Origin: Fibrobacterota bacterium
GTDB lineage: Bacteria; Fibrobacterota; Chitinivibrionia; Chitinivibrionales; FEN-1185
Length of the DNA stretch: 64,000 bases
Assembly: GCA_003165595.1 (NCBI GenBank)
Contig: PLWQ01000012.1
Span: 479,390-543,389 of the forward strand
Direction: 5' to 3'
Below are positions 25,963 through 49,979 of this stretch, in pieces. Below the pieces are notes generated by a model, which saw only the letters and a program-made list of their open reading frames with translations, was not told the origin of the DNA and searched no databases. The first letter of the stretch is position 1, and every line of letters starts with the position of its first letter. Both the position numbers and the translations under genes were made by a program.

Positions 25963-28900
25963 ATGAGTAGGAGTCGCCTGCACGTACGCGAAATCGTGTC
26001 TTCCATGATGCTGCTGTTTACCGTAACCCTCGCATTTTCCGACGAGACCTTCGACAAACTTATGGAGCAGAAGAACTACTCCGACGCGCTCTCCTATGCC
26101 GACAAGAAGATTCCCACCTCCGCGCGCGATGCGGTCTTGTGGGTCAAGATAGGCAAGGCAAACCTCGAACTCGGACTCACGGAAAAAGCCCTCGCCTGCT
26201 ATCTTGTCGCGACGCGCATGGACTCAAAGAATTACGAAGCATACCTTGGCACCGCGAAGGTCTACAATTCCATGAACCAGCCTGCCAATGCGGCGCCCGC
26301 GGCAAAGAAGGCGCTCGATGTTAACTTTACCGCAGATGCGAGCTGGGAATTTGCCCGCGCGTGCATTGCCCTGGGCAAACCCGCCGAGGCGAAGAAAGCG
26401 CTCGAAAAAGTCGTTGAAGCCGACCCGGCCAACATTTCCGCGGTCAAGGAACTCGGTCTTATTTACTACAACGAAAAATCATACCCCAAGGCGCTCGAAC
26501 TGCTGAAGGCCGTGTATGCAAAGCAGCCTGACGGCGCCCTGGCCCTCAAGATTGGCGCGGCAAGCCCGCCCGATTCGGCCATAGTCTATCTCAAGCTTGC
26601 AAAAGACAAGAAGCCTACATCGGTTGAGGCCAGCTACGAACTCGCAAAAATCTACTACACCACCCAGAAATTCGGCGAGGCCGCCGAGGAGTTCGATGCC
26701 TCGTCGTCGGACAGCAAGTTCGGAGCGCAGGAATATTACATGTGGGCCGTATCGCTCGCCAAGGCGAGCGCCCCCGCGGAAAAGATCGCAAAAGTCTACC
26801 AGTCCTTTCTTGACAAAGTGGGACCATCAAAATCGAAAGAGGCCCTGGAAGCCCACCGCGTCGTGGGCGCCCAGCTGCTCGAAAAGAAGGACTACCAGGG
26901 AGCGCTCGCCCATTTCCAGGCCATCTACGCGGCCGACTCCACGGGCAAGATCGTTCCGGACATCAATTTCTCTCTCGCCGCGTGCTACGAAGGTCTCGAT
27001 CTGCCGAAAAAGGCGATTCCCCACCTCGAAAAAGAACTGGCGGTCAACGCGAACAACGTGGAAGCCTATGCGAAACTCGGTGACTTGTACACAAAGTCCG
27101 GGCAGTCCGAAAAGGCCAAGGTGGTGTATGAGAAAATGCTGGCGCTTAACCCGAACAACCCGAAAATCCAGATGGCGCTGGGTGAATTCAACCTCAAGTC
27201 GAAGCGGTATCAGGACGCGCTCAAGTACTTCCAGAAAAGCTACACCCTCGAACGGTCGGCGCCCGCGGCTCAGGGTATGGCCCTTTCGGCGTTCGCCCTC
27301 AACCAGCCCGACATGGCGCGCGACGCGGCAGAATCTGCGCTGCATCTCGACGCAACGCTCTGGGAGCCGCGCGTGGTGCTGTCCACGATTTACATGAAGG
27401 ACAAGAACTATAAGGACGCCCGGGACCAGTTCGAGTTCATGGTTCGCAAACAGCCCGGCAACAAGGAATACTGGCTCCAGCTCGCCGCGTGCTACGAGCA
27501 GCTCAACGAGCCTCAGCGGCTTGCCGAGATAGACAGGAAGATACTGTCTCTGGACTCCCGCAATATTCCCTCGCGCCAGCGCCTTGCCAGGTTCGCACTC
27601 TCCGAGGGCGACACCAAGGCGGCGCTCGAACAATTCAAGGAACTTGCGTTGCTGTCGCCCAAGGATCCGGAGGTGTTCAAGAATCTGTACGAAATTTCGC
27701 TCAAGCTGGGCAATACTGCCGACGCGGCGGCCTATCTAAGAACGTACGTTGCGCTCAAGCCCAACAATGCGGAATCCCAGAAGGCGTTGGGCGACCTCCT
27801 GTACGAGAAAAAAGACATGGCCGGAGCGCTTGCTGCCTATCGCGCGGTTGTCAAAATCGACCCCGCGGCCAAGGGTGTGTACAAGCGCTATGCCGACTTG
27901 TTAGGGCCGGCGCCGCAGGACCCCACCGAGCTGACCGCGGCGCTTAGCGGCGCGATCTCCACCGCCGAAGCCGATGCGCAGACCTACGCCCAGCTCGGGG
28001 CCATTTACCTCAAACAGGGCCTGTGCCCAAAAGCTATCGAGATGCTCGATAAATCGGTGCAGCTCGATCCGAGAAATACCACTGTTCTCTCCATGCTCGC
28101 CCACTGCCAGGCAAAAACCGGCAATGCCAAGGAAGCAATTGTGTCGTACGAGCAGGCGATCGCCATGAACGACAAAGCCGTCGACGAGCTGCGCGCACTG
28201 GGCGACCTGTATGAGCAGGAGAACAAGACCGCCCAGGCGATTGGCGTTTACAAAAGATACCTCGCCAAAAAGCCGGGCGAACATCATATCGCCAAACTCG
28301 TCGCCGACTACGAATTCGGCCAAAAGAACTACGAGGAAGCCCTCAAGTACTATGCCATGGTGAGCGGCACCGAAGCACGAGAAGCGGAGTTCTTGTTCCG
28401 CTACGGCCAGTCGGCCTACTTTGCAAAAGACAATAAGAAAGCAAAGGAGATCCTCATCCAGCTCTCGCTCCTTACCCCGAAGAACGCCGAAGTTTACCGG
28501 CTGCTGTTCGATATCACGTCCAAAGACAGCGCCACGAGGGGCGAGGCTTCGGTCTATCTCCAGAAATACGCGGCGCTCAAGCCCGGCGATGCCGAAGCGC
28601 AGAAGAACCTCGGCGACATGATGTACGAAATGAAGAACCAGGCCGGGGCGCTCGCCGCGTATCGTTCGGCGCTCGCCGCCGATCCGTCGCTCAAGGGATT
28701 TTACAAGCGGTACGTGGAACTCGTGGGCGCACGGGGCACACCCGAGGAACTCGTGAAGGCGCTTACCGGCGCCATCGCCGCCGGTGAAGCCGACGCGGCC
28801 ATGTATGGCTCGCTCGGTAACGTGTACCAGAAGCAGGCCGCGTATGCAAAGGCAATCGACATGTACCAGAAGGCGCTGGCCATTGACCCAAAGAACGTTG

Positions 28901-31900
28901 CGGACCTCTCGGCGATAGCCCAGTGCCAGGCAAAAAGCGGCAGCGTCAACGATGCCGTGATCTCCTACGAGCAGGCCATTGCCATGAACGACAAGGCGGT
29001 GGACGAATACCGGGCTCTCGGCGACTTGTACCTGCAGCAGAAGAAGACGAGCCAGGCCGTCAGTGTTTACGAAAAGTATCTGGCCAAAAAACCGGCCGAC
29101 CGCCGTATCGCAAAGATCATCGCCGACTACGAATACAGCCAGAAGAATTACGACGAAGCAATCAAATATTTCGCCATGATTGCGACCGCAGAGACCACCG
29201 ATTCCGATCTGCTTTTCCGGTACGCCCAGGCGTGCTATTTGGTGAAAGACTACAAGAAGGCAAAGGAGCTCTTTGCGGCTCTCGCCGTGCTCACGCCGAA
29301 AAATGCCGACGTCTACCGGACTCTCTACGAAATAACTTCCAAGGACAATGCGGCACGCACCGAGGCTGCCTCGTACTTGCAGAAATACGCGGCGCTCAAG
29401 CCCGGCGACGCCGAAGCGCAGAAAAATCTCGGCGACATGCTTTACGAGTCCAAGAATCAGGTGGGAGCGCTCGCCGCCTACCGGACCGCCCTGGCGGCCG
29501 ATCCTGCCATCAAGGGGTTTTACAAACGCTATGTTGAGCTTGTGGGCATGCGGGGCACGGCCGAAGAGCTTGTAAAGGCTCTCACCGGAGCGGTTGCAGC
29601 CGGCGAAGCCGACGCAGCCATGTACAGCTCGCTGGGCACCGTGTACCAGAAGCAAGGCTCCTACGCAAAAGCCATCGACATGTACCAGAAGTCGTTGCAG
29701 ATCGACCCCAAGAACGTCTCCATCCTTTCGGCAGTGGCCCAGTGCCAGGCGAAAAGCGGTAAGACGGACGATGCGGTGATTTCCTACGAGCAGGCCGTTG
29801 CAATGAACGATAAAGCGGTCGACGAGTACAGGGCGCTGGGTGAGCTGTACGCGAAGCAGAACAAGACGAGCCAGTCGATCGCCATGTACAAGAAATACCT
29901 GGAAAAGAAACCGGGCGACTTCGCAATTGCAAAGGCTGTGGGCGACTACTCCTTTAGCCAGAAAAATTACGATGATGCGCTCAAATATTACGGCTTGGTC
30001 GGCGGTGCCGAAGCCAGAAACGCGGATTTTCTTTTCCGCTATGGTCAGGCATGCTACCTGGCAAAGAATTACAAGAAAGCAACCGAGGTGCTCAACCGGC
30101 TGGCGCTCATCACGCCGCTCAACGCCGAGGTTTACAAGACGCTGTACGACATCGCCGAGGAAAGCGGCGCATCGAAAGTGGAAGCGGCATCGTACCTCAA
30201 GAAATATGTTTCTGTCAAGCCGACAGATGCCGCGGCCCAGAAGAACCTCGGCGATCTTCTGTACGAACAGAAGAACTTCGACGCGGCCCTGGCAGCCTAC
30301 CAGGCCGCGCTCAAAGCCGATCCGTCCATCAAGGGATTCTACAAACGGTATGTTGAGATCGTGTCGACAAAGGGCGTTGCAAAAGACGTTGTTACAGCCA
30401 TGAAAGGCGCCATTGCCGCCGGCGAGGCCGATGCGCAGATGTACGAAACGATCGGAACCATCAATCAAAAGGCGGGCGCATGCGTCAAGGCCATCGAATA
30501 TTTCCAGAAATCGCTGCAGCTCGATCCGAAGAACACGCGCCTGCTGTCGGCGCTCGGTCAATGCCAGGCGAAAAACGGCAACACCAACGACGCGGTGGTG
30601 TCGTACGAACAGGCCGTCGCCATGAACCCCGACGCGGTCGACGACTACAAGACCCTCGGCGACCTGTACATGCAGCAGCAGAAGACGAGCCAGGCGATGT
30701 CGATGTACCGGAAGTATCTCGAAAAGCGGCCCGCCAACTACAAGGTTGCGCTCACGGTTGCCGACTATCTCAACGGCCAGAAGAACTACGACGAAGCAAC
30801 CAAGTACTACGGCATGGTCGGCGGCACCGATGCCAAGGGCTCCGAGTTCCTGTTCAAGTATGCCCAGGCGTGTTACAATTCCAAGAATTTCAAGAAGGCG
30901 TCGGAGGTTCTCCTCCAGCTTGCCAAGCTCACGCCGCTCAATGCCGAAGTGTTCAGGATGCTGTACGATATCTCGTCGAAGGAAAGCGGCAACAAGAAGG
31001 AATCTTCCGGGTATCTCAAGAAATACCTGAGTCTCAAGCCCGCCGATGCGTCGGCGCAAAAGAGCTTGGGTGATATGCTCTACGAAGAGAAGAACACCGC
31101 TGGCGCGCTTGCCGCGTACGAAGCGGCGCTCAAAGCCGATCCGGAAGTCAAGGGATTTTACAAACGCTATGTTGAGCTGGTGACCGCCGGCGGCGTTCAG
31201 GAATCCATCGTCAAGGCGCTCAAAGGCGCGATTGCCGCAGGCGAAGCCGACGCGGCCATGTATGCCACGCTCGGCGGGGTGTACAAGGCATCGGCGAATT
31301 ATCCCAGGGCGATCGAAATGTACGGCAAAGCGCTGCAGCTTGACCCGCGCAACACCGATGCCCTTTCGTCGCTTGCCCTGTGTCAGGCAAAGAGCGGCAA
31401 CGTAAAGGACGCCACGATTTCCTACGAACAGGTCGTTGCGCTCAATCCGCAGGACATCAAACAGTACAAGATGCTTGCGGACCTATACATGAAACAGAAC
31501 AAGACCGATCAGGCAATGAACATGTACAAGAAATGCCTTGAGAAGAACCCGAGTGATTACAAGACGGCAATGACGGTCGGCGAATATGAGTACAAGACCA
31601 AGGACTACGACGAAGCGGTAAAGTACCTGGGCATGGTGACCGGCGCCGATGCCAAGACCTCGGCGTATCTGCTGCTCTACGGGCAGGCCTGCTACAAGAG
31701 CAAGGGCTGCACCAAAGCGGCGGAGATTTTCCGCCAGCTCGCCATCCTCGCTCCCACTAACCCTGACGTGTTCAAGACGCTGTACGAAATTTCGGCAAAA
31801 GCCGGTAATACCGCGGATGCAGCCATGTACCTCAAGAAGTACGTTGCGCTCGATCCTTCCGATGCAGCGGCGCAGAAGAGCCTCGGCGACATGCTTTACG

Positions 31901-33759
31901 AACAAAAGGAAATGACCGGAGCGCTCAATTCCTATCGCGCTGCGCTCAAGGCCGATCCCTCCGTCAAGGGAATCTTCAAGCGCTACTGTGAGCTGGTGAT
32001 GACGCGCGGAACGCCGGAGGAGATCAGCAAGGCCCTTGCAGGCGCGGTTGCAGCGGGCGAAGCCGACGGAGCCATGTACTCATCGCTCGGCGCGATCTAT
32101 CAGAAGCAGGGTTCTTACGCAAAAGCCGTTGCCATGTACCAGAAGGCGCTGTCGCTTGACCCGCGCAATGTTGGCGTGCTCTCGTCCCTGGCGCTATGCC
32201 AGGCGAAAAACGGCGACGTGAACGACGCCGTCATATCATATGAGCAGTCGGTTGCGATGAACCCGGACGCCACCTCCGATTATAAGGCGCTCGGTGACCT
32301 TTATACAAAGCAGAACAAGGCCTCGCAGGCGCTGTCGATGTACAAGAAATATCTCGAAAAGAACCCGAAAGACGCGACGGTTGCGCGTTCGGTGGGCGAA
32401 GCGGCGTTTGCCGCAAAGAACTACGAGGAAGCCGTCAAATACCTTGCCCTGGTAACCGGCGAAGCCGCCAGAACGCTGGACTTCATCTTCGTGTACGGCC
32501 AGTCGTGCTATTACAGCAAAGACTACAAGAAGGCAATAGAGCTTTTCGAGCGGTTCCGGGAAATCAACTCCAAGCTTACGCAGAAGCATTCCGGCACGGT
32601 CACGGTCATGAAACTGCTCGGCGACGCGTACGATAAGTCGGCCAACGCGGAGAAGGCGCTCGAGGTTTACTCGATCTACACCAAGCTTTCCGGCGTTCAC
32701 GATCCCGAGGCATCGCTCCGCAAGGCGCAGCTCACCGAAGCCTCGAATCCGGCCGCTGCCGCCAAGATGTACGAAGAAAACACTGTTTTGTATCCGAAAG
32801 ACTACAAGAGCTTCCTGGCTGCCGGACTCTACTATGCCAAGCAGAAGGCAACCCTCGACAAGGCGCTTGCCCTGCTCAAGAAGTGCTCTGCCCTGGCAGA
32901 CACCATCCCGGCCATGTGGTTTGAAATGGGCCAGGTCTACGACAAGCTCGGCAAAGACAAAGACGAACTCGACGCGTTCAGGAAGTTCATCCAGCTCGAT
33001 CCGGAGAACGCCGAAGCTGCCGGCAAAATCGGTGAGCTGCTGATCGCCAAGCACAAATACAACGACGCCATGATGTTCCTGGAAACCGCCAACGCCCTCA
33101 AACCGAACGATCCCAAGTACATGGTTCCACTTGCGCAGGGTTATATCCAGACCGACCGTTCAAAGGACGCCCTGGATCTTCTGGAAAAGGCCGACAAGCT
33201 GAAACCGGAGGACGAGACTATTAAGATAACCCTGTTCGACCTGTACAAATCCACCGGGCAATCCAAGAAGGCTCTTGACGTTATGCAACAGATCGTGCAG
33301 AAGAAGCGCGACAACAAGACGCTGCTCAAGTACGCGGATGCCTTGTACCTCTCCGGCTCCTATGCCACAGCCGAAAGCACTATCAAAGACATCACCGCCA
33401 CCGATCCGGAAAATATTCCGGCACTCATGCTGTACGGCCAGATCCAGTCGATCCAGGGAAAGTGGGACGACGCGGTGGAGACCTACAAGGAAATTTCCTA
33501 TATCAATCCGAACTATGCTCCGGCCATGTACGAGCGCGCCGAAGTGTACCTCAACCAGTCAAAGCTTCCGTGGGCGAAGACGTTCTACGAACGTGCGCTT
33601 AAGGCCGATCCGAATTACGCGCTTGCCGAACTGGGGCTTGCCAAGCTCGCGAAAGTCCAGAAAAACATGGCCGATTACCAGATTCATCTCGACAAGGCGC
33701 TCAAGATGGACCCGACAAACAAAGAAATTCAGGAAGAAGCCGGCAAGAAGAAGAAGTAG
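25963..33759 (+). CDS. giant secreted TPR protein with six tandem ~273-residue super-repeats
   Basis: This 2598-residue protein starts at an ATG with AAGGAG about seven bases upstream. A signal sequence (SSMMLLFTVTLAFSDETF) is followed almost entirely by tetratricopeptide repeats, for example EKALACYLVATRMDSKNYEA and DDAVETYKEISYINPNYAPA. About residues 560-2200 are six copies of one larger unit, each about eight TPRs long. Landmarks in each copy are LGD(M/L)xYE, then (L/I)KG(F/V/I)(Y/F)KRY, EADAxMY, LDPxN, CQAKxGN and YExAxxYxxM. The product should be a long superhelical scaffold, probably periplasmic and soluble since no other membrane segment is seen. It is monocistronic, with a strong terminator after the stop. 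Its partners are unknown; large TPR proteins of this sort often organise envelope or secretion assemblies. Confidence 0.9.
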   Translation: MSRSRLHVREIVSSMMLLFTVTLAFSDETFDKLMEQKNYSDALSYADKKIPTSARDAVLWVKIGKANLELGLTEKALACYLVATRMDSKNYEAYLGTAKVYNSMNQPANAAPAAKKALDVNFTADASWEFARACIALGKPAEAKKALEKVVEADPANISAVKELGLIYYNEKSYPKALELLKAVYAKQPDGALALKIGAASPPDSAIVYLKLAKDKKPTSVEASYELAKIYYTTQKFGEAAEEFDASSSDSKFGAQEYYMWAVSLAKASAPAEKIAKVYQSFLDKVGPSKSKEALEAHRVVGAQLLEKKDYQGALAHFQAIYAADSTGKIVPDINFSLAACYEGLDLPKKAIPHLEKELAVNANNVEAYAKLGDLYTKSGQSEKAKVVYEKMLALNPNNPKIQMALGEFNLKSKRYQDALKYFQKSYTLERSAPAAQGMALSAFALNQPDMARDAAESALHLDATLWEPRVVLSTIYMKDKNYKDARDQFEFMVRKQPGNKEYWLQLAACYEQLNEPQRLAEIDRKILSLDSRNIPSRQRLARFALSEGDTKAALEQFKELALLSPKDPEVFKNLYEISLKLGNTADAAAYLRTYVALKPNNAESQKALGDLLYEKKDMAGALAAYRAVVKIDPAAKGVYKRYADLLGPAPQDPTELTAALSGAISTAEADAQTYAQLGAIYLKQGLCPKAIEMLDKSVQLDPRNTTVLSMLAHCQAKTGNAKEAIVSYEQAIAMNDKAVDELRALGDLYEQENKTAQAIGVYKRYLAKKPGEHHIAKLVADYEFGQKNYEEALKYYAMVSGTEAREAEFLFRYGQSAYFAKDNKKAKEILIQLSLLTPKNAEVYRLLFDITSKDSATRGEASVYLQKYAALKPGDAEAQKNLGDMMYEMKNQAGALAAYRSALAADPSLKGFYKRYVELVGARGTPEELVKALTGAIAAGEADAAMYGSLGNVYQKQAAYAKAIDMYQKALAIDPKNVADLSAIAQCQAKSGSVNDAVISYEQAIAMNDKAVDEYRALGDLYLQQKKTSQAVSVYEKYLAKKPADRRIAKIIADYEYSQKNYDEAIKYFAMIATAETTDSDLLFRYAQACYLVKDYKKAKELFAALAVLTPKNADVYRTLYEITSKDNAARTEAASYLQKYAALKPGDAEAQKNLGDMLYESKNQVGALAAYRTALAADPAIKGFYKRYVELVGMRGTAEELVKALTGAVAAGEADAAMYSSLGTVYQKQGSYAKAIDMYQKSLQIDPKNVSILSAVAQCQAKSGKTDDAVISYEQAVAMNDKAVDEYRALGELYAKQNKTSQSIAMYKKYLEKKPGDFAIAKAVGDYSFSQKNYDDALKYYGLVGGAEARNADFLFRYGQACYLAKNYKKATEVLNRLALITPLNAEVYKTLYDIAEESGASKVEAASYLKKYVSVKPTDAAAQKNLGDLLYEQKNFDAALAAYQAALKADPSIKGFYKRYVEIVSTKGVAKDVVTAMKGAIAAGEADAQMYETIGTINQKAGACVKAIEYFQKSLQLDPKNTRLLSALGQCQAKNGNTNDAVVSYEQAVAMNPDAVDDYKTLGDLYMQQQKTSQAMSMYRKYLEKRPANYKVALTVADYLNGQKNYDEATKYYGMVGGTDAKGSEFLFKYAQACYNSKNFKKASEVLLQLAKLTPLNAEVFRMLYDISSKESGNKKESSGYLKKYLSLKPADASAQKSLGDMLYEEKNTAGALAAYEAALKADPEVKGFYKRYVELVTAGGVQESIVKALKGAIAAGEADAAMYATLGGVYKASANYPRAIEMYGKALQLDPRNTDALSSLALCQAKSGNVKDATISYEQVVALNPQDIKQYKMLADLYMKQNKTDQAMNMYKKCLEKNPSDYKTAMTVGEYEYKTKDYDEAVKYLGMVTGADAKTSAYLLLYGQACYKSKGCTKAAEIFRQLAILAPTNPDVFKTLYEISAKAGNTADAAMYLKKYVALDPSDAAAQKSLGDMLYEQKEMTGALNSYRAALKADPSVKGIFKRYCELVMTRGTPEEISKALAGAVAAGEADGAMYSSLGAIYQKQGSYAKAVAMYQKALSLDPRNVGVLSSLALCQAKNGDVNDAVISYEQSVAMNPDATSDYKALGDLYTKQNKASQALSMYKKYLEKNPKDATVARSVGEAAFAAKNYEEAVKYLALVTGEAARTLDFIFVYGQSCYYSKDYKKAIELFERFREINSKLTQKHSGTVTVMKLLGDAYDKSANAEKALEVYSIYTKLSGVHDPEASLRKAQLTEASNPAAAAKMYEENTVLYPKDYKSFLAAGLYYAKQKATLDKALALLKKCSALADTIPAMWFEMGQVYDKLGKDKDELDAFRKFIQLDPENAEAAGKIGELLIAKHKYNDAMMFLETANALKPNDPKYMVPLAQGYIQTDRSKDALDLLEKADKLKPEDETIKITLFDLYKSTGQSKKALDVMQQIVQKKRDNKTLLKYADALYLSGSYATAESTIKDITATDPENIPALMLYGQIQSIQGKWDDAVETYKEISYINPNYAPAMYERAEVYLNQSKLPWAKTFYERALKADPNYALAELGLAKLAKVQKNMADYQIHLDKALKMDPTNKEIQEEAGKKKK
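27640..32554 (+). repeat. six tandem intragenic repeats, period 816-822 bases
   Basis: The codons for the Gly-Asp of the LGD(M/L)xYE landmark begin at 27790, 28612, 29431, 30250, 31069 and 31885. Spacing is therefore 822, 819, 819, 819 and 816 bases, always a multiple of three. Copies two and three are nearly identical in DNA around the landmark (GCGCTCAAGCCCGGCGA shared), which suggests recent duplication or gene conversion. Confidence 0.9.
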
Positions 33760-42260: not shown

Positions 42261-43553
42261 TTACTTTGCCCTCCTTTTCCTCTTATCAACCACCCGTACT
42301 TTCTTGGCGCATTGCTCCCGATGGTGGTTGATTGTCGCGACATTCGACACCAACACCGGAATCTGAACCCGGGCCTGCGCCCGCAATTGGCTGCCGATCT
42401 TTTCAAGATTCGACGGCATGGTGGCCACGTGGATGGAAACGCGGTCCGAGAGCGATTCGTCATCTTCGATGATGATGATGTAATCGTCGATGCCTTCGAG
42501 CGAATCGAGCACGTTGGTTATTGCGAGCGGATACACCGTAGTGCCTTTCAGCTTGATCATATGCGCTTTGCGGGCGAGAATCGGGCCAACCCGGATGGAA
42601 TTGCGGCCGCAAGCGCAAGTGCCGGGAAGCTTGAACGTGATGTCGCCGGTCTTGTAGCGAACCAGCGGCACGCCTTCCACGCCCAGCGGCGTGGCAACGA
42701 GCTCGCCCGGCTGGCCGTCGGCAACCGGGTTTCCGCTTTCGTCGACAATCTCGGTATACACAAGCTCCGGGTGGCCATGACCGCCGTATTGCGCCGTGCA
42801 TTCGCAGTATGCGCACGAAAGCTCGGTTGACGCATAGGTCGAATACACCTTTGCATTGTAAAATTCCTCAAGTGCCTTGCCCACCTGATTGAGTTCCATG
42901 TCCTGGCCGCGGATGCTTTCACCGATGCAGAAGATCTTCCTGATGGTTGCGTTTTTCGGATCGAAGGACAGTTTATTGAGTTCCCTGGCGAGTTTGAGCA
43001 GGAAGGACGGCACGCCGACCACCACATTCGGTTTGAGCAGTTCGATGTAATGCTTCTGCATGTCGAAGGGAAGAACGCCGATGCGCGCCGTGTTTACACC
43101 CAGGAGCGACAACCCGCGGTAATACGCCATGCCCGCAATAAAAAGCCTGTCGAGCGACACGAGCACCTGCGCACGGTCGAGCGGGGTTACGCCCGCAGCG
43201 TAGAACGACAGCGCCTCGTTGAAGGCGAGGCGGTCTACGTCGTTTGCGGTCATGGAGAACACGAGCGGCTTTCCCGTGGACCCGCTGGTGATCACGGTTT
43301 CCACGATCTGTTCCGGTACCACACCCAGAAACAGGTCGGTGTCTTCGACAAGGTCCGATTTTTCGGTAAACGGCAGCTTACGGATATCGTCGGCGGTCTT
43401 GATGTCTTCCGGGAAAACGTCGAACAGCGCATTCTGGTAATGCGGCGATACTTCCTTGACGTGGCGAACGTGGTTCCGCACGCCGCGCACCGAGCGTGAT
43501 TCTATTTCGTCGGCCGATAGAAATTCCCATGAGAGTTCGGGTCTAAAAACCAA
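42261..43553 (-). CDS. acyl-activating enzyme, phenylacetate-CoA ligase (PaaK)-like
   Basis: This 430-residue protein belongs to the PaaK/coenzyme F390 synthetase branch of the ANL superfamily. The P-loop-like motif is VITSGSTGKPLVFS. YSTYASTELSCAYCEC is the adenine-binding region. LVRYKTGDITFKLPG contains the conserved Asp that binds ribose, and CGRNSIRVGPILARKAHMIK leads into the small C-terminal domain with KLKGTTVYPLAI. It would adenylate a carboxylate and pass it to CoA or another thiol. It overlaps the TonB-receptor gene by 11 bases and sits in the same block as KAS III and E1. Activation of an aryl or fatty acid for a lipid-like product fits, but the substrate is unknown. Confidence 0.85.
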   Translation of the reverse strand: MVFRPELSWEFLSADEIESRSVRGVRNHVRHVKEVSPHYQNALFDVFPEDIKTADDIRKLPFTEKSDLVEDTDLFLGVVPEQIVETVITSGSTGKPLVFSMTANDVDRLAFNEALSFYAAGVTPLDRAQVLVSLDRLFIAGMAYYRGLSLLGVNTARIGVLPFDMQKHYIELLKPNVVVGVPSFLLKLARELNKLSFDPKNATIRKIFCIGESIRGQDMELNQVGKALEEFYNAKVYSTYASTELSCAYCECTAQYGGHGHPELVYTEIVDESGNPVADGQPGELVATPLGVEGVPLVRYKTGDITFKLPGTCACGRNSIRVGPILARKAHMIKLKGTTVYPLAITNVLDSLEGIDDYIIIIEDDESLSDRVSIHVATMPSNLEKIGSQLRAQARVQIPVLVSNVATINHHREQCAKKVRVVDKRKRRAK

Positions 43554-46656: not shown

Positions 46657-47985
46657 CTACCATTCGATGGTAAGGGCCGCAATGGTCACCCCTGCGCCAA
46701 CCGAGCACAATACAAGACGGTCGCCGGGCCGCAGATCTTTTTGCAGATCCAGCATGGCAAGCGGGATGCTTGCGCTTGACGTATTGCCCACCCGGTCGAT
46801 GTTGATGTAGAACCGTTCGAACGGCACTCCGGATTTCTGCGCGGCTGCCTTGAGTATCCGCGCATTTGCCTGGTGCGGCACCACCCACCCAACGTCCTGG
46901 GGGTTCCAGCCGCTTTTTGCGACAACATCCTGGATGATGGTGGCGAACCCTCCGGTCGCGAAGCGGAACAGGGCATGGCCGTCGAGCCTGATCCACGGAT
47001 TGAGATTTTCGAGTCCTATGGGGATCTTGTATCCGGGCACCGAACGCTTGGCAAGCGGCAGTCCCTTGGAATCGGCCTTGAGGATCGCCTCACGCATTGC
47101 ATGGCCGGGGCGCTTTCCCGACACCACGGCCGCGCCTGCGCCGTCGCCAAAAAGGAAATAGGTGCCCATGTCTGTTTTGTCAAGAAGCTGCGACTGCATT
47201 TCCACGCCGGTCACCAGGATGTCGTCGGCCACGCCCGCAAGGATGAGCCCTTTGGCGACCGACAATCCGTACAGCCAGCCCGAACAGGCCGCCTTGAGGT
47301 CGAACGACGGTATCCCGCGCAAGCCGAGCATGTCCTGGAGGATACATGCGGTTGACGGCATGGAAACGTCGGGCGTTTCCGTGGAAACGATGATGCCGCC
47401 GATATCCTTGGGATCGAGCCCGGATCTGCGGATCGCCTCGCTCGACGCCTGAAAAGCCATGTCGGACGGCTTCTCGCCGTCTTTGGCCCAGCGCCGCTCC
47501 CTGATGCCGGTAACGCCGAAAATGTATTCTTCGGTGACCGCGGGGAACTCGCGCAACAGTTCCTTGTTGGTAACCACCCGGTCGGGAAGGTATCCGCCGA
47601 GGCCGAGAATGTTGACGGCGCGGACGGTGGCCGCAGCGGAGGCCGTAGAACCGGCCGAGGGACGCGGCGCCGCCTTGGGCGGTGCGGCATTTGCCGCTTG
47701 CGCAGCGGGAATGGCGTTCTTCATGGATACGTCGCTCGTCTCGATCTCCATGACCGGTTCTTCAAACGAAATGGTATCCCCTTCCACCGACAGCATCTTT
47801 ACCACTGTCCCGTCGCACGGCGCCTCGAAATCGAACGCCGTCTTTGCGCTCTCTATTTCGCCCAGGATCTGGCCTTTCTTGAATGCGTCGCCGGCAGAAA
47901 CGTTCCATTTTGTGATGGTCGCCTCTGTTTCCGCCGCTGCCTGCGACGGGAGGTACAACGGAGTTTTGAAAGTGTCGTTACTCAC
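46657..47985 (-). CDS. lipoyl-domain / ketoacyl-ACP synthase III fusion
   Basis: This 442-residue protein starts at a GTG at 47985 with GGAG eight bases upstream, two bases after the E1 stop. Residues about 5-85 form a lipoyl/biotinyl domain: EATITKWNVSAGDAFKKGQI, then GEIESAKTAFDFEAPCDGTV, with modifiable Lys48 in ESAKTAFD. An Ala/Pro linker (about 90-122) leads to a complete KAS III: LGLGGYLPDRVVTNKELL, active-site Cys234 in KAACSGWLYGL, His371 in VVPHQANARI and Asn401 in RVGNTSS. KAS III condenses an acyl-thioester primer with malonyl-ACP. Carrying a lipoyl arm on the same chain, next to E1, suggests that the acyl group formed by E1 is delivered straight to the synthase. No E2 acyltransferase domain is present. 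Confidence 0.93.
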   Translation of the reverse strand: MSNDTFKTPLYLPSQAAAETEATITKWNVSAGDAFKKGQILGEIESAKTAFDFEAPCDGTVVKMLSVEGDTISFEEPVMEIETSDVSMKNAIPAAQAANAAPPKAAPRPSAGSTASAAATVRAVNILGLGGYLPDRVVTNKELLREFPAVTEEYIFGVTGIRERRWAKDGEKPSDMAFQASSEAIRRSGLDPKDIGGIIVSTETPDVSMPSTACILQDMLGLRGIPSFDLKAACSGWLYGLSVAKGLILAGVADDILVTGVEMQSQLLDKTDMGTYFLFGDGAGAAVVSGKRPGHAMREAILKADSKGLPLAKRSVPGYKIPIGLENLNPWIRLDGHALFRFATGGFATIIQDVVAKSGWNPQDVGWVVPHQANARILKAAAQKSGVPFERFYINIDRVGNTSSASIPLAMLDLQKDLRPGDRLVLCSVGAGVTIAALTIEW

Positions 47986-47987
47986 CG

Positions 47988-49979
47988 TTAGTCTCCAATC
48001 AATTGCGAAATGACAAGTTTCACCCGGTCTTTGTCGGGCCGGTACAGCACCTCCAGTTCGGAGGCGAACGGCACCGGCGCGTCGGGCGCGCTCACAAGAA
48101 CGGGCGCCTTTTTCAAACAGGAGAAGCACTCCCTGCATACCATGGAAATAATCCGGTCGCCGAGCCCGGCCGTGGCGGTGCTTTCCTGCACCACGCACAA
48201 CCGTCCCGTCTTCCGTACCGATTCTATTATCTGTAAAGGCCGCAACGGGTTCAAAACGAACGGATTGAAGATATCGAAGCTACCCCCCAGTTCTTTGCAC
48301 GCCGCCAGCGCCACGTCGAGCATGGCGCCGGTGCCGATCACCGTGCAGTCGGTCCCGGCCGCATACTGCCGTTCCTTCCAGACCTTGGAGAGGTCGCCGT
48401 CGAAGTTGATATCCGAGCCCTTGGCGCTGCCGTACAGCAATTTGTGCTCGAACACCATGCACGGATTCGGGTCGTAGAACCCCGCAACCAGGGCCTCGAA
48501 CATTTCCTGCGGCGTAAAGGGATACAGAAGCTTGAGACCGCAGAACCGCGACCACAACCCTTCAAATTCTCCGGAATGAAATGCGCCCAGCGTTATGCCG
48601 CCGCCACAGGGAAGCCGGACAAGCAGCGGGGCTTCCTTGCCGCTCCGAAAATACCATGTGCCGGAGTTGAGCCCCAATTGGGTGACGCTTTCGGTGGAGA
48701 AATCCGCGAACTGGAATTCGATGATGGGACGCGAGCCGGTTTGCGAGGCGCCGAGGGCGAATCCGGTGATCGCCGATTCGGCGAGCGGCATGTCCATTAC
48801 CCGGTCTTTGCCGTATTTGTCAAACAGTCCCTTGCACGTTTTGAACGCGGAGCCGTAGGGCCCTATGTCGAGTCCCATGAGCACCGCAGACGGTTCGTTG
48901 GCAAGGAGGTAATCCTGCGCAAGGGTCACTGCGCTCAGATACTTCACTTTTTGCGCGGAAAACGGTTTGCAGGTTTGAACCTTCGCGGGTTCGGCGAACA
49001 CATGGCCCACAGCAATTGCGGGATCGGGCCTGGGGGGCAACAGGGCCTTGCGAACCGTTTCTTCAACCTCGGCTTCCACCTGCCGTTCGATGTCGACGAC
49101 GAGCGCCTCCGCATTTCCGGCATCGAGCAGCGCCCGGCGCGCCCGCATCAGCGGTTCGCGGGTGAGCCACTCGTCGCGTTCCTCCTTTGTCACATACTCG
49201 GCCTTGTCGTACACCGCATGACCTTCAAGCCGGAGCGTCATGCATTCGAGAATGTACGGGAGCGACGTCGCGGTCATTTCGTCGAGAGCCGCGCATACCG
49301 CGGCATACACTTCCCACACGTCGGTGCCGTCTATGGTTCTTCCCTTGATGCCGTAGCCCGCGGCCCGGTCCGAAAGCTTCCGGCACGCGTACTGAAGCCT
49401 TGTGGGCGTGGAATAGGAATAGTGGTTATTCTGGATGAGAAACAGCACCGGCACTTTGCGCACCGACGCGATGTTGATTGACTCGTGAAACTCGCCCTTG
49501 CTGCTTCCGCCGTCGCCGATGACGGCAAGTCCCAGCGCGTCCTCGCCGTGTTGACGCGCGCTCCAGGTTCCCCCGACAACGGTTGACAACATGTTTGACA
49601 AATGGCTTATCATGGGGAAACGGCGCTCATGAGCGTTTCCATGATGCACGTTGCCTTCGCGGCCGTGCGTGGGGCTGTCGGCATTGGCGATGTACTGACA
49701 CAGCATGGAATACGGCGTTTCGCCCATGGTCATATGCGCCGCGAAATCGCGCTGCATGAGCGAAAGCACGTCTTTCCCGGGGCGAAACGGCATACTCATG
49801 CCAACGGCGGTGGCTTCGTTGCCGATACCGAGCGTCACGGTTCCCTTGACATACCGCTTCTTGTAGAGCTCGCTGATCTTTTCTTCAAGTTTTCTTGATA
49901 AATACATCCAGCGGTAAGCGACGGGAAGGAACTCGTTCCTCCCGAGTTTACCGGGGTACCGAGTGAATGCGGCGCTCAT
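47988..49979 (-). CDS. 2-oxoacid dehydrogenase E1, fused alpha and beta subunits
   Basis: At 663 residues the protein spans both subunits. The alpha part (about 15-320) has the thiamine-diphosphate motif GDGGSSKGEFHESINIAS ending near Asn184-Asn185 (LIQNNHYS). The beta part (about 340-663) has GLDIGPYGSAFKTC, DMPLAESAITGFALGASQTG, LVRLPCGGG and CVVQESTATAGLGDRIISM. Fused E1 of this type is usually annotated as branched-chain or 2-oxoisovalerate dehydrogenase. It decarboxylates a 2-oxoacid and transfers the acyl group to a lipoyl arm. No E2 or E3 gene is in the window; instead the next gene supplies a lipoyl domain fused to KAS III. It is the first gene of a minus-strand block, with GAGG before its ATG. 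Confidence 0.93.
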   Translation of the reverse strand: MSAAFTRYPGKLGRNEFLPVAYRWMYLSRKLEEKISELYKKRYVKGTVTLGIGNEATAVGMSMPFRPGKDVLSLMQRDFAAHMTMGETPYSMLCQYIANADSPTHGREGNVHHGNAHERRFPMISHLSNMLSTVVGGTWSARQHGEDALGLAVIGDGGSSKGEFHESINIASVRKVPVLFLIQNNHYSYSTPTRLQYACRKLSDRAAGYGIKGRTIDGTDVWEVYAAVCAALDEMTATSLPYILECMTLRLEGHAVYDKAEYVTKEERDEWLTREPLMRARRALLDAGNAEALVVDIERQVEAEVEETVRKALLPPRPDPAIAVGHVFAEPAKVQTCKPFSAQKVKYLSAVTLAQDYLLANEPSAVLMGLDIGPYGSAFKTCKGLFDKYGKDRVMDMPLAESAITGFALGASQTGSRPIIEFQFADFSTESVTQLGLNSGTWYFRSGKEAPLLVRLPCGGGITLGAFHSGEFEGLWSRFCGLKLLYPFTPQEMFEALVAGFYDPNPCMVFEHKLLYGSAKGSDINFDGDLSKVWKERQYAAGTDCTVIGTGAMLDVALAACKELGGSFDIFNPFVLNPLRPLQIIESVRKTGRLCVVQESTATAGLGDRIISMVCRECFSCLKKAPVLVSAPDAPVPFASELEVLYRPDKDRVKLVISQLIGD

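Follow-up and report, generated by a model that had tools for sequence, protein, structure and literature searches.

A lipoyl domain joined to a ketosynthase beside a 2-oxoacid dehydrogenase E1 in Fibrobacterota: a probable route for starting branched fatty acids without acyl-CoA

Where does the acyl group go when a 2-oxoacid dehydrogenase E1 is encoded directly beside a lipoyl domain that is joined to a ketoacyl-acyl carrier protein synthase III (KAS III)? The question is raised by two adjacent genes in a 64,000-nucleotide stretch of a Fibrobacterota genome (assembly GCA_003165595.1, contig PLWQ01000012.1, positions 479,390 to 543,389; hereafter the window). Lipoyl arms deliver acyl groups to coenzyme A (CoA), or in a few antibiotic pathways to acyl carrier protein (ACP), and in the standard account KAS III is the point of entry into fatty acid synthesis and depends on acyl-CoA. 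We consider it probable that the pair forms a hitherto undescribed complex, a 2-oxoacid dehydrogenase-ketosynthase, in which a swinging lipoyl arm links the oxidative decarboxylation of a 2-oxoacid to a ketosynthase that forms carbon-carbon bonds: the arm takes the acyl group from E1 and hands it on to the KAS cysteine, and branched fatty acids are started without acyl-CoA. Such a channel had been proposed in an initial annotation of the window, and at the level of computable predictions it is supported. The fusion and the E1 are co-inherited in three phyla, as seen in adjacency, a shared E1 subfamily and matching trees; the genome has no E2 acyltransferase but encodes an E3 dehydrogenase, LipA and a lipoate transferase; and the residues with which FabH holds CoA are lost while those for catalysis and ACP docking are kept. 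An E3-binding domain in the Opitutae fusions and the branched fatty acids of a cultured relative point the same way.

Both genes lie on the minus strand. The E1 runs from an ATG at 49979 to a TAA at 47988, and after the bases CG the fusion follows from a GTG at 47985 to a stop at 46657; coordinates, strand, two-base gap, lengths and domain content, as first annotated, were re-derived from the sequence and with Pfam. Translational coupling of the two genes is likely, judging from the GGAG ahead of the GTG (Table 1). The E1 matches PF00676 (residues 25-318), PF02779 (344-516) and PF02780 (541-653), each over cut-off, and its thiamine diphosphate (ThDP) motif and catalytic Glu and His are kept across its subfamily in alignment, as in E1 enzymes of the alpha2beta2 type. 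In the fusion PF00364 (residues 12-81, 46 bits), PF08545 and PF08541 all score over cut-off, and Pfam finds no PF00198 acyltransferase domain. The best NCBIfam matches of the lipoyl region (residues 9-119) are E2 components of the acetoin, 2-oxoglutarate and pyruvate systems, with biotin carriers far weaker. The KAS domain scores 312 bits with NF006829 (cut-off 249) and falls short of the FabH subfamily model TIGR00747 (284.9 bits, cut-off 292.1). An AlphaFold model of the fusion (mean pLDDT, the predicted local distance difference test score, of 85.6) has two folded parts joined by a linker disordered at residues 96-119, and by Foldseek the predicted KAS fold matches E. coli FabH with a TM-score of 0.92 by target length.

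Table 1. Features of the E1 and lipoyl-KAS III gene pair, in window coordinates.
Feature	Position	Strand	Basis
2-oxoacid dehydrogenase E1, 663 aa, alpha and beta in a single chain	47988..49979	-	Pfam, conserved motifs
E1 ThDP-binding motif GDGGSS...NN, residues 155-185	49425..49517	-	Alignment with homologues and pyruvate dehydrogenase E1 rows
GGAG, Shine-Dalgarno-like, within the 3' end of E1, ahead of the fusion GTG	47993..47996	-	Sequence
Lipoyl-KAS III fusion, 442 aa, GTG start 2 bases past the E1 stop	46657..47985	-	Pfam; homologues share the start point
E2-type lipoyl domain, residues 1-83; Lys48 at 47844-47842 in ESAKTAFDFEAPCDG	47737..47985	-	PF00364, NCBIfam
Flexible Ala/Pro/Ser/Thr-rich linker, residues 84-122	47620..47736	-	67% A/P/S/T; pLDDT <50 at 96-119
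KAS III (FabH-like) domain; Cys234 47286-47284, His371 46875-46873, Asn401 46785-46783	46660..47619	-	NF006829, fold

Whether the fusion occurs in other genomes had been left as a question, and the answer is that it does so widely. Among 84,980 species genomes that were scanned, 32 relatives turned up, in Chitinispirillia (57-61% identical to the window fusion over the alignment), Planctomycetota (54-59%) and Opitutae (37-39%). Within its own phylum, where 167 genomes were searched, it is present in 27 of the 40 genomes of its order (its own genome counted; 26 copies are full length) and in none of the 127 genomes outside that order. A chimeric open reading frame (ORF) or sequencing error was ruled out by these independent homologues from three phyla, which share the domain order and the start. 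Lys48, Cys234, His371 and Asn401 are invariant across 31 homologues, and the motif around Lys48, (E/D)S(A/D)K, reads ESAK, DSAK or ESDK in all 31. Residues 48-59 (47844-47809) also hold a block, F-D-F-E-A-P-C-D-G, that is invariant across the three phyla and includes Cys57 just past Lys48. Lipoyl domains are not usually conserved so strictly, and E1 or KAS III may dock on this block.

The lipoyl-KAS III fusions having been searched, as the initial annotation had suggested, we tabulated their adjacency to E1. The E1 lies directly upstream at all 16 Chitinispirillia and Planctomycetota loci that have upstream sequence, and at 23 of 26 loci of the window's own order; of the remaining three loci, two start close to the end of a contig. 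Some genomes belong to both sets. The Opitutae show co-occurrence without linkage: their fusions sit among genes for CTP synthase, a KdsA-like protein and an RNA methyltransferase, yet all 11 sampled fusion genomes encode a fused alpha/beta E1 of the window's subfamily (38-42% identical), the other E1s there reaching about 30% identity or less. In one of them (L178) the fusion and the matching E1 are about 12 kb apart. The KAS III and E1 trees divide the fusion partners alike, grouping them on one side of a branch with support of 99 and 100, respectively. In all 13 aligned Opitutae members the domain order is lipoyl, E3_binding (PF02817) and KAS III, a predicted layout that is the architecture of an E2 in which KAS III has replaced the acyltransferase.

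Several observations accompany this distribution. The Opitutae fusion stands beside pyrG and a kdsA-like gene (L174, L178, L179, L181, L020-L034), and the matching E1 stands, as read by eye in L174, beside LptB- and HPr kinase-like genes; such lipopolysaccharide and Kdo (3-deoxy-D-manno-octulosonic acid) neighbourhoods suggest that the two genes either derive from one ancient locus or are connected with the acyl groups of lipid A. The E1 and fusion of record JABMRB010000453.1, labelled Candidatus Nealsonbacteria, branch inside Planctomycetota; this position and the 9.1 Mb genome speak for a mislabelled bin. In some Planctomycetota there is a second E1 with fused alpha and beta halves, which belongs to a distinct family; its frames are 831 and 770 aa long, with 30% identity.

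The same comparisons bear on whether the N-terminal domain might instead be biotinylated, as a carboxyl carrier feeding CO2 or malonyl chemistry. PF00364 spans both kinds of domain and Lys48 lies in the usual hairpin, but ESAK or ESDK stands where biotin carriers have (A/V)MKM, the top matches are to E2 lipoyl domains, an E3-binding domain comes next in Opitutae, and E1 is the neighbour. We rejected the biotin carrier on its motif and its E2-type matches, and give that reading hardly any credence.

If the lipoyl arm serves E1, its genome should be read for the remaining partners of such a complex. The initial annotation had noted that the window holds neither an E2 acyltransferase nor an E3, which is so, and the absence of PF00198 extends to the whole genome. 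By profile searches of this genome (98% complete) there is one real E1 and PF00198 is nowhere, the same search being positive in 10 of 14 genomes used as a control; a normal E2 partner elsewhere in the genome was ruled out on this ground. The sole other PF00364 domain is of the biotin type, in a carboxylase, leaving that of the fusion as the only E2-type lipoyl domain. Because there is no other, the glycine cleavage protein GcvH, which is present, is the one alternative lipoyl partner for the E1. An E3, anticipated to lie elsewhere, was found as a single intact gene on another contig (442 bits, with the GGVCLNEGCIPSK disulfide motif), and LipA and one LplA-type lipoate transferase are encoded. 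Of the 33 genomes that bear the fusion, a further 10 likewise gave no PF00198 match; their completeness is not given, and they include an Opitutales genome that has the E1 (L031). A Chitinispirillum metagenome-assembled genome (MAG; L003) has the E1-fusion pair and no detected E2. Most Opitutae encode E1 and E2 genes of the pyruvate dehydrogenase (PDH) and 2-oxoglutarate dehydrogenase (OGDH) types in addition. Every fusion-bearing genome searched for KAS III has further KAS III genes too. That of the window encodes a canonical FabH (C3:118997-119941) with Phe87 and the CoA residues kept, among genes that look like a fatty-acid cluster; the fusion is therefore not the cell's only KAS III.

A genome without an E2 could also mean that the fusion is a substitute for one, its cysteine moving the acyl group from lipoyl to CoA, or to ACP as a plain acyl-ACP, with no condensation. 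We compared residues with E. coli FabH as a ruler, using 36 distinct fusions from Chitinispirillia and Planctomycetota (group A), 14 from Opitutae, and 42 distinct plain FabHs, almost all of which come from genomes of these same kinds. The catalytic Cys112, His244 and Asn274 and the ACP-docking Arg249 are invariant in fusions and plain FabHs alike. Non-condensing relatives of KAS usually alter the triad, and its complete conservation speaks against a substitute E2. So does the loss of CoA contacts. Trp32, Arg36 and Arg151 correspond to Tyr154, Val158 and Met273 in the window fusion; position 32 is Tyr in 36/36 group A and Glu in 14/14 Opitutae fusions, and position 36 is Val in group A and Val, Leu, Thr or Ile in Opitutae, with Arg in 0/50, whereas plain FabHs keep Arg36 in 42/42 and Trp32 in 40/42. 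Arg151 is lost in all Opitutae and retained in 18/36 group A fusions. In FabH the adenine of CoA is stacked between Trp32 and Arg151, and Arg36 binds the pantetheine (PMC4606726). ACP has no adenine, and loss of Trp32 therefore costs a CoA donor more than it costs malonyl-ACP. A precedent for a substitute E2 exists in the Qnc and Scl systems, where a protein with lipoyl and acyltransferase domains transfers the unit carried on lipoyl to ACP (PMC6335953). On balance we regard a substitute E2 as improbable.

A conventional arrangement, with acyl-CoA from ferredoxin oxidoreductases or an acyl-CoA ligase feeding the fusion and the lipoyl domain as a structural or redox add-on, appears more improbable still. 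The genome encodes four homologues of ferredoxin-dependent 2-oxoacid oxidoreductases of the pyruvate:ferredoxin oxidoreductase (POR) type, a PaaK-like CoA ligase lies nearby, and half of the group A fusions keep Arg151. Trp32 and Arg36 are nevertheless lost in all fusions, the Lys48 block is invariant, and neither the co-inheritance with E1 nor the E3-binding domain in Opitutae accords with an add-on.

What the complex would use as its substrate is a separate matter. The same route from E1 through lipoyl to KAS III could run on pyruvate (or 2-oxobutyrate), giving acetoacetyl-ACP and a straight-chain start directly from pyruvate. The best family models for the window E1 are PDH models, although all are below cut-off (TIGR03182, 195.8 bits against the equivalog cut-off of 393.9; TIGR03181, 194.3 against 411.4), and in a genome with no PDH complex an E1 that uses pyruvate would not be redundant. 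Against this, the nearest solved structures are 2-oxoisovalerate dehydrogenase for the beta half and branched-chain dehydrogenase for the alpha half, albeit by small margins; most Opitutae already have the PDH- and OGDH-type genes; and there are other KAS III genes in each fusion genome searched, with Phe87 in the genome's own canonical FabH. Position 87 is Met in 34/36 group A and Val in 14/14 Opitutae fusions and Phe in 33/42 plain FabHs, and such residues go with longer acyl groups in FabH. Phe87 limits the E. coli enzyme to acetyl, and Thr there admits long chains in that of M. tuberculosis (PMC3734052).

Lipids bear on the same choice. Anteiso-C15:0 needs a 2-methylbutyryl starter, and branched acyls occur in a cultured relative; within the phylum the fusion was found only in the window's own order. 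In that relative, Chitinispirillum alkaliphilum, aiC15:0 and C16:0 are dominant and iC16:0 also occurs; Chitinivibrio and Fibrobacter, of the same phylum, have straight-chain fatty acids (PMC4814513). Coraliomargarita, comparable at the level of the class Opitutae only, has iso-C14:0 and anteiso-C15:0. The fatty acids started by the complex are probably branched, and we think pyruvate an unlikely substrate.

The 2-oxoacid dehydrogenase-ketosynthase would work as follows. The E1, with ThDP, would decarboxylate a 2-oxoacid, most likely branched (3-methyl-2-oxopentanoate or 2-oxoisovalerate), and reductively acylate a lipoyl group carried by Lys48 in the fusion. Thanks to the flexible linker, the S-acyl-dihydrolipoyl arm could enter the pocket of KAS III, and the acyl group would pass straight to Cys234. 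Malonyl-ACP would next dock on the conserved basic patch; its decarboxylative condensation with the acyl group would yield a branched 3-oxoacyl-ACP, with which the synthesis of branched fatty acids begins. The single E3 of the genome would reoxidise the dihydrolipoyl group, yielding NADH. KAS III would thereby stand in the place of the E2 acyltransferase, and acyl-CoA would not be released. Acylation of E2 lipoyl domains by E1 is standard, as is condensation with malonyl-ACP by KAS III, and the novel step would be the thioester exchange from dihydrolipoyl to the KAS cysteine.

Several points weigh against this scheme. The lipoyl-lysine arm is shorter than phosphopantetheine, and reaching Cys234 therefore needs a fitted mouth. 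With Arg151 retained as it is, the predicted loss of the CoA site is incomplete in group A, and Pfam recognises no E3-binding domain in the window fusion. E3, LipA and the lipoate transferase also serve the glycine cleavage system, and the ferredoxin oxidoreductases could supply branched acyl-CoA to the canonical FabH. The specificity of the E1 is not readable from its sequence, and the fatty-acid profile is that of a different species, whose own copy of the gene was not identified in this analysis.

Other genes near the pair encode RadC, a TonB receptor-like protein, a CoA ligase and a NUDIX protein. The PaaK-like CoA ligase (42261-43553, minus strand) lies a few genes from the fusion and is closest to the flexirubin ligase FlxY; among the loci compared, it recurs near the fusion only at the Chitinispirillum MAG locus. 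Farther away, a single 2598-aa ORF (25963-33759, plus strand) consists mostly of tetratricopeptide repeats.

If correct, the scheme would connect 2-oxoacid catabolism with lipid synthesis at a new point, explain branched membrane lipids in bacteria without E2, and offer a CoA-free choice of starter unit for engineered fatty acid or polyketide synthesis. We found no description of a lipoyl domain joined to FabH or another ketosynthase in the open literature, a search beyond whose reach most subscription papers lie. The parts and the swinging-arm logic are known; the junction is undescribed, and the nearest idea is the transfer of glycolyl units from lipoyl to ACP in Qnc and Scl. NapB/NapD is a glycolyl-ACP loader of that same kind. 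In QncN/QncL and SclQ1-4 a ThDP enzyme charges the lipoyl domain, from which the unit passes to a carrier protein rather than to CoA, but the donor is a ketose phosphate, the catalytic domain is described as an acyltransferase, the context is peptide synthesis, and no KAS III condensation is described (PMC6335953). The fusion has no E2-type acyltransferase domain, and its neighbours form no peptide synthetase cluster.

With the E2 proteins of PDH, OGDH and branched-chain 2-oxoacid dehydrogenase the fusion shares an E1 partner of the alpha/beta type, an E2-type lipoyl domain, an Ala/Pro linker, an E3 in the genome and, in Opitutae, the E3-binding domain, but where these have PF00198 it has a KAS III that forms carbon-carbon bonds, and the acyl group need not reach CoA. 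In the Bkd and FabH route of Bacillus and Listeria, E1-E2-E3 release branched acyl-CoA, which FabH binds. The proposed decarboxylation of a branched 2-oxoacid followed by KAS III condensation with malonyl-ACP is alike, except that the KAS III of the fusion carries the lipoyl arm and has lost Trp32 and Arg36. Canonical FabH, in E. coli and in the same genome, has the fold, the Cys-His-Asn triad and the docking Arg249 in common with the fusion; it differs in having no lipoyl domain and in keeping Trp32, Arg36, Arg151 and mostly Phe87. Judged by its domains and residues, the fusion is neither an E2, having no PF00198, nor an ordinary FabH, having lost CoA residues; it probably works like the former and reacts like the latter.

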